A stretch of 64,000 nucleotides of DNA, from NCBI GenBank assembly GCA_902762305.1, contig CACWNW010000016.1, positions 1 through 64,000 of the forward strand. Reading direction: 5' to 3'. Below are positions 4,493-10,581 of this stretch, one piece after another. Origin of the DNA: Fibrobacter succinogenes (GTDB taxonomy: Bacteria > Fibrobacterota > Fibrobacteria > Fibrobacterales > Fibrobacteraceae). Positions within the stretch are counted from its first letter, which is position 1, and every line of letters begins with the position of its first letter. Made by a program: the position numbers and the translations under genes. Under the pieces are notes generated by a model that saw nothing but the letters and a program-made list of their open reading frames with translations, did not search any database and was not told the origin of the DNA.

Positions 4493-7040
4493 TCACCTTC
4501 TTGCTAATGCGGACCATACCGCGGGAATCAAGAACCTTGACCACATAGGCGCCCGCAGGGATATCCGCGAGGTCCACATGCCTTACGCCCTGGACCCTTT
4601 CAGAGAGAATGCCCTTGCCGTTCACCGCGAAGAGCTTGACGGTGCCGCCAGCGGGTGCAACTACATGCAGGGAGCGGTTTTCGAACTGTAGCGACGGTGC
4701 AGCAAACGATACCGCACGCTTTATTCCCGAGATGAATTCCGTGCCCTCGGGGGCGCCCACGATGAGCCCGCGGCCCACCGTGCTCATGTACACCACACCG
4801 AACGTGTTCATGTCGCCCTGCACGAAGTTCCCGTTGCCCGGTCCACCGAACTGGTGCATGTCATCGTTCACGCGCTCGAAAGTCTTGCACTTGTCGGTAC
4901 TGCGGTAAATGCCGATCGGGTCGCCATCCTTCGCGGCACCCCAGATAAAGATGGTCTCGTAGTCGGCACCTTCCTTAGCCTTGCCGATACCCACGGCGAT
5001 TGCGACCTTCGCGCCTTCACAACGCGTCCAATCCTTGCCGCCGTTTTCGCTATAGGCAAGGCCGTTCTCGCTGAAGCCCTTCGTAAGCCAGACCTGCGCC
5101 TGGTCCATCGGGACCCACAGGTGGCCTTCCCTGCCAGGTACCGTGCGGATGAGACCGCCTCCGTTATAGTATTCGCCCGCACCATCGTTCTGGAGCCTCT
5201 GCCCATACTTCGCGAAAGACTTGGCTCCGTCATCGGAGCGGTACAGGTTCGCCTGCGCATCCATCACGTAGAACACGTCCGGATTCACGGGGTCGGCGAC
5301 TATGCGGGAATTCTGCGTCTGCCCGCCGTCCAATTCTACAGCGGTCCATGTCGCGCCATTATCGGCCGAGCGGTATGTAGTCGAACTCATCTCGGGGCGG
5401 TGCAGCATCACCTTGCCGTTGGCAGAGAGCACCACCAATCCCTTCGGGCCCTTGAGCGTCGTCTTCACGCTGTCCCAGGTTTGGCCCATATCATCAGAGC
5501 GGAACATCACGTTGTAGTTGATGGATTCATACTGGCCGTAAACCGTAATCACGCCCGTACGCAAGAGCGAACCGCTCAACGGTGCATAGCCCATACTCTC
5601 GGTAGAGCCGACCGTAGGCCTATGGCGCTTCGCGCTCTCGTTGATGTTCGTGTAAGTCGCGCCGTCGTAGTCGCCAATCGCCGTTACCAGCGGGCCACCC
5701 GGAATGCTCACGATATCAAGCGGGACGGTTTCCTCGATACCGCGGGACTGGAACTTCCACACAGGGACCTTCGCAGTGATGTCGTCCGTCATGAAGATGC
5801 CGTTGCCGCTCGTGACCCAGGCCTGCTTGTTGTTGAACGGGTTGATTTCGAGCGAGCCCGCCCAGTGGATAGCGTTGCCCGGAATCCAGTCCGTGCCGTT
5901 CGCATCGATATTGATGCCGTCGCCGTAATGCTGGCCGTGATTCCACGTCTTGCCGCCATCCGTGGTCGTGTAGATGCGGTCGCCGTAGTTGTCGCGTTCG
6001 TTGCCCGCAGCATCCTTCGCAAGGTGGCGACCGGTATACTTGCCCAGCGTCGAAATCACGATGTGGTTCTTGTCCTTCGGGTCAATCGCGACACCGCCGT
6101 AGGAACTCTTGTCCTTCTCGTAGGTGGTGGGGCTCTGCTCGTGCGTCACCGAATCGCTCGGGGTGAGATCGGTCCAGGTGCCACCCGCGATGTTGTACTT
6201 GTAGAAGGCTCCGCTGTTAATGCTATGCGGGCCCGGGCCGTCGGCAAAAGTGATGAACATGTCGCCATCGACAATCTTCGCGCGGTGGGGCATCAGGCCG
6301 GTAGGTACTCCCGAAACAGTCTTCCACGTAGCACCGCCGTCGTTACTCACCTGCAGGTTGTCTTTCGTGTCAGAAATACCGATGTAGATGGTCTTGGTCG
6401 AACCGTCGGCGTTCTTGCCCTGCGCCTCGTCGAACATCACGAAGCTGATGCCGTTCACGTTATTCAAGCTCGATTCCTTCGCATCGGAAAGCGCGACCTT
6501 GTAGGCGCTCGTCCACGTCTTGCCGTAGTCGGTACTCTTGTAGAGGCCCTTCGTGCGGCTACCACAGAAGATGATGTTCGGCTTGTTCGGGTCCACCGCG
6601 AGCTTTTCACCGGTCTGGCGGCCCATGCCGTTGCCGTGCGCGAGCATTTCCACATAGCTCGTGTCCCATGTGGCACCGTAGTCCTCGCTCCGGAGCACGG
6701 CAGTGCGACCCTGGCTAAAGTATCCCGTACCCGCAAGCACGTAGATGCGCCTCGGGTCCGTCGGGTCGAGCGCGAACGCCTCGGTGCCGTAAAGTCCCAC
6801 GTCGTTCTGGCTCACCCAGTCCATCAGCGGGATCCAGACCTTGTTCGCAAAATCGAAACGGTAAACGCCACCCACGTCGGTACGGGCGTAAAGCACATTT
6901 TCTGCCTTGGGGTGGAAAATCACCGCCGACACGAATCCGCCGCCATCGAAGCGGACATTGCCCCAGTTATAGTTCTCAGCCTGAGCAAGGCCAGCAATAG
7001 CCGCGACCGTCGCGGCGCCCATCAAAAATTTTCCAAACAT
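4482..7040 (-). CDS. Secreted GH74 xyloglucanase with C-terminal sorting domain
   Basis: 852 residues. A signal peptide (to AQAEN near residue 22) is followed by a beta-propeller enzyme of glycoside hydrolase family 74, which cuts the beta-1,4-glucan backbone of xyloglucan. The two places where GH74 carries its catalytic Asp pair are visible: ARTDVGGVYR (Asp55) and AIGDYDG (Asp457/459). Repeated blade motifs of the type S.D.G.TW (DYGATW, DYGKTW, DGGATW, DGGKTW, DNGATW) confirm the BNR-like propeller. The last 60 residues (TVKLFAVNGKG... to ISKKVTIR) look like a type IX secretion sorting domain. The ATG at 7040 has GGAG upstream. It stands alone and would help degrade plant hemicellulose. Confidence 0.93.
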   Translation of the reverse strand: MFGKFLMGAATVAAIAGLAQAENYNWGNVRFDGGGFVSAVIFHPKAENVLYARTDVGGVYRFDFANKVWIPLMDWVSQNDVGLYGTEAFALDPTDPRRIYVLAGTGYFSQGRTAVLRSEDYGATWDTSYVEMLAHGNGMGRQTGEKLAVDPNKPNIIFCGSRTKGLYKSTDYGKTWTSAYKVALSDAKESSLNNVNGISFVMFDEAQGKNADGSTKTIYIGISDTKDNLQVSNDGGATWKTVSGVPTGLMPHRAKIVDGDMFITFADGPGPHSINSGAFYKYNIAGGTWTDLTPSDSVTHEQSPTTYEKDKSSYGGVAIDPKDKNHIVISTLGKYTGRHLAKDAAGNERDNYGDRIYTTTDGGKTWNHGQHYGDGINIDANGTDWIPGNAIHWAGSLEINPFNNKQAWVTSGNGIFMTDDITAKVPVWKFQSRGIEETVPLDIVSIPGGPLVTAIGDYDGATYTNINESAKRHRPTVGSTESMGYAPLSGSLLRTGVITVYGQYESINYNVMFRSDDMGQTWDSVKTTLKGPKGLVVLSANGKVMLHRPEMSSTTYRSADNGATWTAVELDGGQTQNSRIVADPVNPDVFYVMDAQANLYRSDDGAKSFAKYGQRLQNDGAGEYYNGGGLIRTVPGREGHLWVPMDQAQVWLTKGFSENGLAYSENGGKDWTRCEGAKVAIAVGIGKAKEGADYETIFIWGAAKDGDPIGIYRSTDKCKTFERVNDDMHQFGGPGNGNFVQGDMNTFGVVYMSTVGRGLIVGAPEGTEFISGIKRAVSFAAPSLQFENRSLHVVAPAGGTVKLFAVNGKGILSERVQGVRHVDLADIPAGAYVVKVLDSRGMVRISKKVTIR

Positions 7041-7218
7041 AGTCGACTCCAATAGTCTCATGCACCACCAAGAAGATATATTAATGACTGCGCGAACACC
7101 CCAAAATACGGGTCCGGCCCGCCAAAAGCGTTTATGCAAACACAACAAGGCTAAAAATGGGGGTAAAAAAGGGCGACGCCTTTACAAAACGGCATTTTTT
7201 TTTAAATTTGGAACACTC

Positions 7219-7291
7219 GCGGGAGTAGCTCAGTTGGTAGAGCGCGACCTTCCCAAGGTCGATGTCGAGGGTTCGAGACCCTTTTCCCGCT
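7219..7291 (+). tRNA. tRNA-Gly (anticodon CCC)
   Basis: A 73-base cloverleaf: acceptor GCGGGAG at 7219-7225 pairs with TTCCCGC at 7284-7290 and the discriminator base is T7291. The D-arm is GCTCAGTTGGTAGAGC, and the anticodon arm CGACC-TTCCCAA-GGTCG gives anticodon CCC (glycine, GGG codons). The T-arm contains GGGTTCGAGACCC. CCA is not encoded. A terminator follows at once. Confidence 0.95.
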
Positions 7292-7303
7292 CTAAAAACA
7301 AAG

Positions 7304-7333
7304 AAGACGCCACCAGGCGTCTTTTTTGTTTTT
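7304..7333 (+). terminator. Terminator after tRNA-Gly
   Basis: An 8-bp perfect stem, AAGACGCC at 7304-7311 and GGCGTCTT at 7316-7323, with loop ACCA, runs into a T-rich tract. It lies 12 bases after the tRNA. Confidence 0.85.
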
Positions 7334-7443
7334 TAGAGTTGGGAGAAAAAGGTGGCGAGAACCCTCGAAGAGGGTTCGGCACAAAAGTGCCGTGGGCACG
7401 AAGTGACCATGAAATAGGCACTTTTTGAGCTTGATGCGAGTGA

Positions 7444-7510
7444 GTGAGCAATGTAGCCCTCGGGTGTTAACCGAGGGCGATTGCGAGAGCAAAGTCCATG
7501 CCGTAGTTTA
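7444..7510 (+). repeat. Structured intergenic repeat, copy A (3' part diverged)
   Basis: GTGAGCA, then a 7-bp stem CCCTCGG (7457-7463) / CCGAGGG (7471-7477) around loop GTGTTAA, then GCGATTGCGAGAGC and ...CCGTAGTTTA. It aligns with the copy at 20005-20096 up to about 7510 and then loses similarity. Confidence 0.6.
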
Positions 7511-7601
7511 TCATTTACATTTAGACTTTGCTGTCTCATAAACGAGCATCGAGCCCGTAGGGTTGACAATCAGCCGCGAAGCGGTGTCTGATTGGCAACA
7601 A

Positions 7602-7616
7602 ACCCTTTTCCCGCTC
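7602..7616 (+). repeat. 15-bp direct copy of the tRNA-Gly 3' end
   Basis: ACCCTTTTCCCGCTC here is identical to 7278-7292, which spans the T-arm end, acceptor strand and discriminator of the tRNA gene. Both copies are followed within 25 bases by a terminator-type hairpin. This is the pattern of an attachment-site duplication, but no integrase is seen between the copies, which are 324 bp apart. Confidence 0.6.
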
Positions 7617-7624
7617 GAAACAGG

Positions 7625-8374: not shown

Positions 8375-9394
8375 TTATTCCTCTAGTTTAGTACAGCGGA
8401 CGGAGAGACCGTGAGTTTTGAGTTGAGAAAAAACCATAGCCCCGGTATCTGTATCGTTCACTCCTATTGCAAGGGCATACTTTTCGACATACCCTTCATT
8501 TCCTTCTTCCGGATAATACCAATATGTAGCAACATTTATATTTTTCAATCTTCGATCCCACACATAGCCAGCGCCGACGAGGGAATAGCCGGTAGAATTG
8601 AACCCATTAAATCCATACGAAGAACGAACCCCCGCAATTCCATGCGTGTTGCCATCAGCATTAATCACTATATAAAAATCTTCCTGAGTCAAAAGGCGCC
8701 AGCCATCCGGGCAAATTCCCTGGTGGTTCGGCTGGATCAAATCGGCGCAGCTCTTGGTATTACATTCGCTCGGCAATTGCATCATCTCGGCCCACTGATA
8801 GAGGGCTCCGTAACGGTCGCAATTTGTGGTATCATCATCATAGCAGTAGCGCTCAATCTTAGAATCATTCGCCTGATCATCGTCATAAAAAATCATTGTG
8901 CCGACATTTAGGTTTTCTGCCATTACTGTCACAGAATCCGGTTTCCCCTTCGAATTCTTCCCCCTTATGGTGAGGTAATAATAAGTGCGTCCATTGCGTT
9001 CGTCTGTAAACTTCTTATATTCGTCTCTCATTTCACCCAAAGTTACCGTATGATCGAACGGCACATATTCACTGCTGCTAGACTGCTGTGTAACGCTAGA
9101 GGAAGACTTCGCGCTGCTGCTGGATTTCGCAGAGCTACTGGAAGATTTTGCACTGCTACTGGACACACTTGTCTCGCTGCTGCTCGACTTCGGTGTGACG
9201 CTAGAAGAAGATTTTGCACTGCTGCTGGATTTTGCAGAGCTGCTGGAAGATTTTGCGCTGCTACTGGATCCTATCGTTCCTTCGGAACTCCAGGATGACG
9301 ATGTGGGTTCATCGTCACGCGGGGCGAAACTGCTCTCGTCGTCACCACACGCAACAAAAAGTGCAAGCGCAAAACCCAGTAAAAAGCGCTTCAT
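8375..9394 (-). CDS. Lipoprotein with Ser-rich linkers and a TIGR02145 (Fibrobacter major paralogous) domain
   Basis: 339 residues. The lipoprotein signal has lipobox LFVAC (Cys16). Residues about 30-108 are low complexity: repeated SSSSAKSSSS units with VTPK and VTQQ breaks, typical of linkers in Fibrobacter surface proteins. From about 115 on it has the features of the TIGR02145 family: a short repeat around DERNGRTYYYLTI, WM/VMAENLN, YGALYQWAEMMQ, HQGICPDGWRLLTQEDF, the GFNGFNSTGYSLVG middle and a final SVRC. The family's function is unknown; it is greatly expanded in Fibrobacter and found at the cell surface. AGGAGGAA lies upstream of the ATG. It stands alone. Confidence 0.9.
   Translation of the reverse strand: MKRFLLGFALALFVACGDDESSFAPRDDEPTSSSWSSEGTIGSSSSAKSSSSSAKSSSSAKSSSSVTPKSSSSETSVSSSSAKSSSSSAKSSSSAKSSSSVTQQSSSSEYVPFDHTVTLGEMRDEYKKFTDERNGRTYYYLTIRGKNSKGKPDSVTVMAENLNVGTMIFYDDDQANDSKIERYCYDDDTTNCDRYGALYQWAEMMQLPSECNTKSCADLIQPNHQGICPDGWRLLTQEDFYIVINADGNTHGIAGVRSSYGFNGFNSTGYSLVGAGYVWDRRLKNINVATYWYYPEEGNEGYVEKYALAIGVNDTDTGAMVFSQLKTHGLSVRCTKLEE
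9050..9290 (-). repeat. Internal Ser-codon tandem repeats of the TIGR02145 lipoprotein
   Basis: Degenerate units encoding SSSSAK/SSSSVT recur, including two near-identical blocks of about 80-90 bp, each made of AK-SSSS repeats ending in VTPK or VTQQ. They encode linker only and vary by whole codons, as expected from slippage or unequal recombination. Confidence 0.7.
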
Positions 9395-9494
9395 GCAGAT
9401 ATTCCTCCTGTTCCACCATTCTTAATGTAGTAAAAAAACAAAAGTCACCCGCTGGGTGGCTTTCATGTAATCCGTCAATCCTGTACGGAAAGTT

Positions 9495-9659
9495 CTATTT
9501 TTCGCTAGACAAAATATCGCTTTTGGAAACATGAAGGAGGCTGACCGCTTCATCGATAGTCAGTTTGCCTGCATTTATCATAATCCGAGCGACCTCTATA
9601 CTTTGATCTTTCTTTCCCTGCAGGTAGGAACCCTGTTTTTCGTAAAGCAAATCCATCAT
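9495..9659 (-). CDS. Separate copy of the Rpn C-terminal tail (candidate small protein)
   Basis: 54 residues starting MMDLLYEKQGSYLQG and continuing KKDQSIEVARIMINAGKLTIDEAVSLL. They repeat the last 48 residues of the Rpn protein just upstream (MTDILYEKQGSYLQG...), including the helix ...AGK(I/L)T.DEA. The segment is out of frame with the nuclease, separated by its TAA and a run of nine T. GGTGAG nine bases before the double ATG could initiate it. It may be a small inhibitor made from its own start, a tail joined by frameshifting, or a decayed fragment; its clean conservation argues against simple decay. Confidence 0.45.
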   Translation of the reverse strand: MMDLLYEKQGSYLQGKKDQSIEVARIMINAGKLTIDEAVSLLHVSKSDILSSEK

Positions 9660-9684
9660 TTTGTCTATCTCACCGAAAAAAAAA

Positions 9685-9831
9685 TTATTTTTCCTGCTTA
9701 CGCTTTGCCGAAATTTTAGAGAAATACTCCGCCTCATCAGCAGTGATTTTCCCTGCTTCAATCAGCGCCTTCGCAAGGTCTTGCTGCCCTTGCAAGTACG
9801 AGCCCTGTTTTTCGTAAAGTATGTCAGTCAT
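9685..9831 (-). CDS. Possible internal small product of the Rpn gene (C-terminal tail)
   Basis: An in-frame ATG at 9829-9831 (MTDILYEKQG...) is preceded by GAGG eight bases upstream, so a 48-residue C-terminal protein could be made within the nuclease gene. Short C-terminal products of rpn genes that neutralise the full protein are known in enterobacteria. Here it is only inferred from the start signals and the independent copy at 9495-9659. Confidence 0.3.
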   Translation of the reverse strand: MTDILYEKQGSYLQGQQDLAKALIEAGKITADEAEYFSKISAKRKQEK

Positions 9832-10581
9832 TCCGTCAACCTCGTTCAATAGGGTTTCGTCGGTATACCCCTTTAAAGATACATCTTTCGCAAACTCCTT
9901 GTCAAGGAGACGCTTCAGCTTTTCTTCGGGGATCTCTTTGTCTTCGAGAACATCCCTTAAAATTCGCAGCATTTCGGCCCTGTCTGACGTATCGCGCTTT
10001 TCGGGCGGGGTGCGGTCGTCGATGGTGAAGAACTTTTCGATTTCAATTAGGTAAATGTCCAACTTGTCGTAGTAAAGACGGCGGTTTCGCACCAACTGGG
10101 CGTGATGCAGGTATGTATTCCTCTTCTTCGGGAACTGGTTCTCGGTCAAGATTGAAAGTACATAGATGTGCGGCAGGTTGTAGTCTTGCGATTTCTTGAC
10201 CGTACGCGAAATAACGCGGACAGTGTAATATATGAGTCGGTCCACGAAAAGCGTGTTGAAGTTCTGTTGGACCTCAATCAGCACAGGTTCTCCCGCCTGC
10301 GTGGTGCCGTAGATATCAAAAATCGCTGTTTTGTCGTTTAGCACGCCGGGATTTTCAGGCACTCCGAGTGTATAGGATTTTATCGCCTTTTCGCCCGTTA
10401 GCCCGAGCATCGCGTTCAGGAATTTCACGGTACGTTCGGGCTTGGCTTCGTTCGCCAGGAGCATCTTAAAGATGCCGTCGCTAAACGGATAGACGTTCTT
10501 GTATTTCTTGCGGTAGTATGCCAGACGTTCGGGGTGCTCGTGCACGTCCTTTGCCATAACGATGAATTCAATGCGGTTCAT
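9685..10581 (-). CDS. Rpn/PDDEXK_2-family recombination-promoting nuclease (putative transposase-like)
   Basis: 298 residues of the Rpn (YhgA-like, TIGR01784) family: PFSDGIFKMLLANEAKPE near 32-49 and the nuclease core IFDIYGTTQAGEPVLIEVQ near 88-106, with the D...E-x-Q arrangement of PD-(D/E)XK enzymes, then RLIYYTVRVISRTVKK. Such proteins are DNA endonucleases that stimulate RecA-independent recombination, and some act in phage defence. The start has GGAG five bases upstream. The C-terminal tail (from 9831) begins with Met preceded by GAGG, allowing internal initiation as described for Rpn small products. A second tail copy follows out of frame. Confidence 0.88.
   Translation of the reverse strand: MNRIEFIVMAKDVHEHPERLAYYRKKYKNVYPFSDGIFKMLLANEAKPERTVKFLNAMLGLTGEKAIKSYTLGVPENPGVLNDKTAIFDIYGTTQAGEPVLIEVQQNFNTLFVDRLIYYTVRVISRTVKKSQDYNLPHIYVLSILTENQFPKKRNTYLHHAQLVRNRRLYYDKLDIYLIEIEKFFTIDDRTPPEKRDTSDRAEMLRILRDVLEDKEIPEEKLKRLLDKEFAKDVSLKGYTDETLLNEVDGMTDILYEKQGSYLQGQQDLAKALIEAGKITADEAEYFSKISAKRKQEK

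Follow-up and report, generated by a model that had tools for sequence, protein, structure and literature searches.

In the 64,000-nucleotide stretch of Fibrobacter succinogenes DNA analyzed here (the window, on contig G000:C16 of a 3.6 Mb genome), a gene for a predicted PD-(D/E)XK nuclease appears to encode its own antitoxin within its 3' end, and is followed by a second, antitoxin-like tail of another type. The locus as a whole is best explained as a toxin-antitoxin gene-within-a-gene of the RpnL/RpnS type after displacement of its C-terminus, a reading to which we assign a probability of roughly two in three. RpnL/RpnS systems are known in Escherichia coli and Clostridioides difficile (COG5464; Zhong et al., 2023, PMC10327210), and the general kind of arrangement, including a second rpnS copy downstream of the long gene, has already been described in E. 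coli. New elements are the nuclease family, the apparently non-cognate type of the second copy, and a putative displacement at a hinge that carries start signals.

Homologs were sought in 80 genomes, all of the genus Fibrobacter. The long reading frame (Table 1) matched PF12784 (PDDEXK_2; E = 4e-28) in a Pfam search that returned one further match, sub-threshold and unrelated, and no match to PF04754 (Transposase_31), to which Pfam assigns the Rpn proteins of E. coli. With PF12784 matched and PF04754 not, the Fibrobacter nuclease is placed by its domains as a sister branch of the E. coli Rpn family and not as a member of that family itself. The NCBIfam Rpn model TIGR01784 matched weakly (33 bits, under the model cut-off of 52). 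The motif residues are D89 and E103-V-Q105, of which D89, E103, and Q105 are invariant across 46 homologs. A sequence search of the PDB with the full nuclease protein gave no match, PADLOC held no model covering these proteins, and a Foldseek search with a full-length model of moderate confidence gave weak matches to PD-(D/E)XK proteins (EcoO109I, McrC, and EndoMS). By analogy with its E. coli relatives, the long product is likely to be toxic.

Table 1. Features of the rpn-like locus, in window coordinates.
Feature	Position	Strand	Basis
Long product, RpnL-like PD-(D/E)XK nuclease, 298 aa, type C tail at C-terminus	9685..10581	-	Pfam, homolog alignment
Intragenic promoter-like site TTGACA-N18-TATCTT	9876..9905	-	Frozen synonymous codons, promoter scoring
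Internal Shine-Dalgarno GAGG, 8 nt upstream of ATG 9831	9840..9843	-	Codon conservation
Small intragenic product, RpnS-like candidate antitoxin, 48 aa, type C tail	9685..9831	-	Invariant start Met, tail homology
Hinge copy 1, direct repeat with Shine-Dalgarno, start, and first helix	9779..9843	-	Sequence repeat
Hinge copy 2, 75% identical to copy 1	9607..9671	-	Sequence repeat
Shine-Dalgarno GGTGAG of second tail, 9 nt upstream of ATG 9659	9669..9674	-	Sequence
Second tail, stand-alone ORF, 54 aa, type A, without stop or frameshift	9495..9659	-	Sequence, tail typing
Terminator-like hairpin followed by T run, downstream of second tail	9446..9458	-	Sequence

Synonymous codon use was scanned in 39 Fibrobacter homologs with core identity >60%, excluding pairs with synonymous divergence <0.15. 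For each column, codon changes were set against those expected for that amino acid in that sequence pair; since related sequences are treated as pairs, the P values are approximate. At the 3' end of the gene, synonymous codons were frozen at exactly three spots in the 39 homologs: CTTGACA, GATGTATCTTT, and GAGGTTGAC-N3-ATG. The six lowest three-codon windows among 262 codons all fell at residues 226–249 (O/E 0.04–0.36 against a mean of 1), the lowest being DVS (0.04) and LDK (0.14), followed by KDV, VSL, EVD, and NEV. Seven of the eight columns with O/E ≤ 0.15 lay among the 21 scored within this stretch (hypergeometric P of 2e-7, approximate); the single frozen column outside it was E220. Codon use was nearly fixed at L226 (CTT, 39/39), D227 (GAC, 38/39), D233 (GAT, 39/39), and V234 (GTA, 39/39), as well as in the S235 column, where TCT was used at 35 of 36 Ser, and at the Shine-Dalgarno sequence (GTT, 33/39; GAG of E247, 39/39). 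The internal start Met was invariant in all 46 aligned homologs. We read the frozen blocks as a promoter, TTGACA-N18-TATCTT, together with a Shine-Dalgarno sequence and an internal start, and on this comparative evidence an internal start for a small product is highly probable.

These signals extend to more divergent genes. In a clade of 46–51% identity, GATGTATCTTT is kept, the -35 part of the promoter is not conserved, and the Shine-Dalgarno sequence ahead of the ATG is GGGAGG or AAGGGAGG. In a clade of 36% identity, all 20 genes use GAG as the Glu codon and 19 of them contain GAGG-N-ATG. The composite GATGTATCTTT-N-GAGGTNGA-N-ATGA occurred 45 times in 30 of the 80 genomes and not once in the reversed control. 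A further promoter-like site, TTGACA-N17-TATATT, was observed ~80–110 bp upstream of the long start of a 50% identical paralog (G000:C26:10930-10958), which raises the possibility that each form, long and short, is transcribed from its own promoter, both of a single class.

The tail encoded behind the internal start is related to a characterized antitoxin. A profile of 20 tails matched the crystal chain of E. coli RpnA-S (7TH0; E = 2.2e-4), with profile positions 14–52 aligned to 7TH0 residues 10–47. RpnA-S consists of three helices, the first of them long (PMC10327210), and the model of the second tail of the window has the same composition (H4-29, H35-42, and H46-53). In a Foldseek search with that model, 7TH0 ranked first of 350,542 chains with a TM-score of 0.60–0.68 and an E-value that is not significant by itself. 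A hallmark of RpnS proteins is four-residue repeats 8–20 residues past the internal Met (PMC10327210). Some relatives have such repeats close behind the internal Met (GREEGRKEGREEG-like and EGFAEGRA-like), and both of the short window tails lack them. Pfam assigned the tails to no family and returned weak HTH-like matches only. A match of the tail profile to 8VD6 was set aside; this is a repeat protein, aligned over five copies of one helix-turn-helix. An earlier note on this DNA had proposed a C-terminal antitoxin produced by internal initiation. With the promoter, Shine-Dalgarno sequence, and start frozen in 39 homologs, the Shine-Dalgarno-ATG pair kept in a second clade, and the match to RpnA-S, there is good support for the prediction of a conserved, Rpn-like antitoxin encoded inside the gene, and for extending the RpnL/RpnS gene-within-a-gene to the PDDEXK_2 branch.

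The same note had described an out-of-frame second copy of the tail behind the Rpn reading frame, after the TAA and nine T, with a Shine-Dalgarno sequence and Met at each copy. All of these features are present (Table 1): a 65-nt direct repeat with 75% identity and a spacing of 172 (frame +1) covers EVDGMTDILYEKQGSYLQG and EIDKMMDLLYEKQGSYLQG, and the second copy is an intact frame, free of stops and frameshifts, that ends at 9497-9495. A repetition of the last ~50 residues, as then described, applies to the hinge of ~22 residues, which is duplicated; the remainders of the two tails are only distantly alike and differ in type, being type C (48 aa) in the gene and type A (54 aa) downstream. In a whole-genome protein search, copy 2 was homologous to residues 222–289 of the gene (E = 5e-9). 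This match, together with the recurrence of the layout in two other genomes, speaks against a chance resemblance.

Tails are modular in Fibrobacter, and cores up to 96.8% identical bear tails that are only 19% identical. The hinge-tail-hinge-tail layout of the window recurs in two other genomes (G018:C31 and G055:C46); the second tail at the window locus was found in one genome only. G018:C31 has the order core-hinge-A-hinge-B-flank, and the syntenic locus G072:C20 the order core-hinge-B-flank. Since the two align at ~89% identity over the hinge, tail B, and 1.6 kb of flanking sequence, the difference between them is one 189-bp hinge-plus-A unit. G055:C46 and G000:C41 show the same one-unit, hinge-plus-tail difference. 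In the window and in both loci with this layout, the second unit begins right after the TAA and T run, at the Shine-Dalgarno sequence or a few bases before it. Recombination of tails, which the earlier note had listed as an alternative, is supported by near-identical cores with unrelated tails and by the unit that separates syntenic loci.

In Rhs and CDI systems, toxin tips undergo C-terminal displacement, and orphan tips and immunity genes are retained. The Fibrobacter loci share with them near-identical cores, a conserved junction, an exchanged and unrelated tip, and an apparently old module downstream, a pattern that both insertion and loss fit. They differ in that the displaced module of Rhs and CDI systems is a toxin tip with its immunity gene, whereas in Fibrobacter it would be the antitoxin-bearing tail itself, and in that the Fibrobacter junction holds the start signals of the exchanged tail. 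We consider it probable that a tail was displaced at the hinge bearing the antitoxin start and that the displaced antitoxin was retained. As to direction, tail A may have been displaced by C or added behind C; we infer the former, and the two loci fit both.

The syntenic counterpart of the window locus, G072:C26, carries tail C without a second tail, and in other close genomes the rpn gene is absent at this site. In G064:C5 (L119), both flanks (the window 9436 and 10620 sides) are present with no rpn match between them, and the gene is therefore a presence/absence item at the site. G072:C26 was also considered as another case of tail displacement and rejected: its DNA lacks a second tail and instead has a palindromic insert of ~66 bp that separates the internal promoter from the hinge.

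Tails also occur by themselves. Stand-alone tails that retain the promoter, Shine-Dalgarno sequence, and ATG were identified at G046:C1, G047:C1, G018:C125, and G046:C6; further orphan tails retain the Shine-Dalgarno sequence and ATG only. Several of the orphans are adjacent to further genes of the Rpn type, from either PF12784 or PF04754. The orthologous orphan pair L073/L075, from G047 and G046 and beside the same neighbor gene, has accumulated 9 synonymous against 6 non-synonymous substitutions (neutrality test, P = 0.001), and orphan tails are, judging from these substitutions, evolving under purifying selection. Conversely, the long frame is broken while the Shine-Dalgarno sequence, start, and tail remain intact at G000:C5, G072:C26, G032:C57, and G041:C4, as would be expected if the short product were useful by itself. 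The first of these (G000:C5:115421-116120; L004, L005), a paralog in the window genome, also retains the internal promoter. As a separate observation, short palindromic-looking elements lie between the intragenic promoter and the internal Shine-Dalgarno sequence, in the leader of the small predicted transcript, in three genomes: L071 (G072:C26) at 1479-1545, L077 (G032:C57), and L153 (G068:C34). The long frame is cut in two of the three and open in one, and relatives of the L071 element are dispersed in G072 and G000.

Whether the second tail of the window is itself a product can be weighed against these orphans. It could be an inert scar of a tail swap that yields no product, a possibility that we regard as unlikely but that fits the occurrence in a single genome, the syntenic G072 locus without a second tail, and a hinge identity down to 75%. 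A scar would not be expected to have an intact frame of 54 codons, exactly the length of type A, with a good Shine-Dalgarno sequence, an ATG at the homologous place, and a terminator-like hairpin downstream, and comparable orphans elsewhere are under purifying selection. Among in-gene type A tails, the closest belongs to G010:C5 (94% core identity with the window gene); between it and the second tail of the window, dN is 0.13 and dS 1.43, a low ratio that may reflect an earlier history inside a gene. On balance, we lean toward the second copy being a non-cognate antitoxin that was kept after tail displacement.

Less probably, the second tail would serve, as the earlier note had suggested, as an additional copy dedicated to supplying the cognate inhibitor. 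In E. coli, Rpn genes have internal transcription starts and internal initiation, inhibition by RpnS is cognate-specific, and separate or downstream copies such as rpnES (ypaA) and rpnCS group with the tails encoded upstream of them (PMC10327210). The layout of the window, with a second rpnS directly behind the long gene, is that of ypaA behind rpnE, and the hinge, which comprises most of the predicted first helix, is common to both window tails. However, the second tail is of type A and the in-gene tail of type C, and the second tail resembles its neighbor less than it resembles several tails elsewhere, those of G010:C5 and G050:C5 among them; the two tails also differ in type within G018:C31 and within G055:C46. 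Given this difference in type and the cognate specificity of RpnS in E. coli, the second copy is probably not a cognate inhibitor, whereas ypaA is cognate in E. coli.

Other features of the RpnL/RpnS systems are shared, namely a PD-(D/E)XK nuclease, a variable three-helix tail at the C-terminus, an internal start with a Shine-Dalgarno sequence, four-residue repeats soon after the internal Met in several tails, and both stand-alone and downstream rpnS copies. The differences are that the Fibrobacter core belongs to PF12784, while RpnS action was shown in the PF04754 family; that a separate internal transcript exists in E. coli, while the Fibrobacter promoter is a prediction; that the downstream copy is of another tail type, unlike rpnES and rpnCS; and that in Fibrobacter a comparison of syntenic loci reveals displacement at the hinge.

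Tails exchange at exactly the spot where codons are frozen, and the frozen sites might mark where recombination or cleavage exchanges the tails, or result from homogenization by gene conversion, instead of being a promoter and ribosome site. We consider this improbable. Homogenization predicts a smooth block, but the frozen codons are punctate (L226 D227 / D233 V234 S235 / G238 / E247) and interrupted by variable ones, such as F230 (O/E 1.25), D241 (1.39), and L244 (1.06), with F230, A231, and T240–L245 mostly near 1. Moreover, the frozen words correspond to a promoter and Shine-Dalgarno sequence at standard distances: TTGACA-N18-TATCTT is the strongest promoter-like site of the region (10/12), and sites of its class are over-represented genome-wide (70 occurrences versus 25 for the reversed control pattern). 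Divergent clades with other residues retain the Shine-Dalgarno sequence and ATG (e.g., AAGGGAGGATATTATG), and one clade that differs in both residues and sequence has retained a still better Shine-Dalgarno sequence ahead of the ATG; in the 46–51% clade, genes with AAGGGAGG have the residues REDIM in place of EVDGM. Finally, that both tails form one longer protein by frameshifting at the poly-T run, an alternative of the earlier note prompted by window copies one frame apart with the T run in between, is highly improbable, as a TAA precedes the run, the copies in G018:C31 and G055:C46 share one reading frame with a TAA between them, and single tails of relatives terminate where copy 1 or copy 2 does.

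Under the RpnL/RpnS-type reading with tail displacement, the full reading frame would yield the nuclease, and the promoter within codons 226–236 and the Shine-Dalgarno sequence at codons 247–248 would allow the last 48 residues to be made separately. The free 48-residue tail would pair with the identical tail of the nuclease and block it. The hinge, with its Shine-Dalgarno sequence, start codon, and first helix, would double as the junction for tail exchange, and the type A tail, with its own Shine-Dalgarno sequence and ATG, would be expressed as a second cistron from the intragenic promoter. The type A copy would most likely be an older or foreign antitoxin kept beside the new tail, and would neutralize nucleases with type A tails (the older protein or related genes elsewhere) and not the window nuclease. 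More tentatively, and rather less likely to be correct, such loci may form a tail-cassette system whose junction is a ribosome site, start codon, and first helix directly behind a promoter. Each tail swap would then give the nuclease a new specificity and the matching antitoxin in one step, the displaced antitoxin, still active downstream, would guard against nucleases of the earlier type, and recombination between the hinges could restore the old tail.

On evolutionary evidence from frozen synonymous sites, these results extend the range of intragenic antitoxins to a further nuclease family and a further phylum, and the approach is applicable to many Rpn-like genes that are annotated as transposases. 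They also suggest how obligatorily linked toxin-antitoxin pairs might switch specificity without killing the cell, by swapping toxin tail and antitoxin as one module and keeping the old antitoxin, and they bear on the origin of downstream rpnS copies, a question left by the 2023 Rpn paper (PMC10327210).

Two observations concern the neighborhood of the locus. At 7001–7620, a tRNA (7219-7291) and the adjoining sequence to ~7620 are 81–96% identical beside the same neighbor gene in several genomes, and the neighboring genes are only 65–70% identical in the more distant of those genomes; the part beyond the tRNA gave no Rfam match at the gathering score. The FISUMP lipoprotein-like gene that adjoins the rpn-like locus contains a serine-rich linker (9069–9268) that consists of two 95-bp direct repeats with 87% identity.
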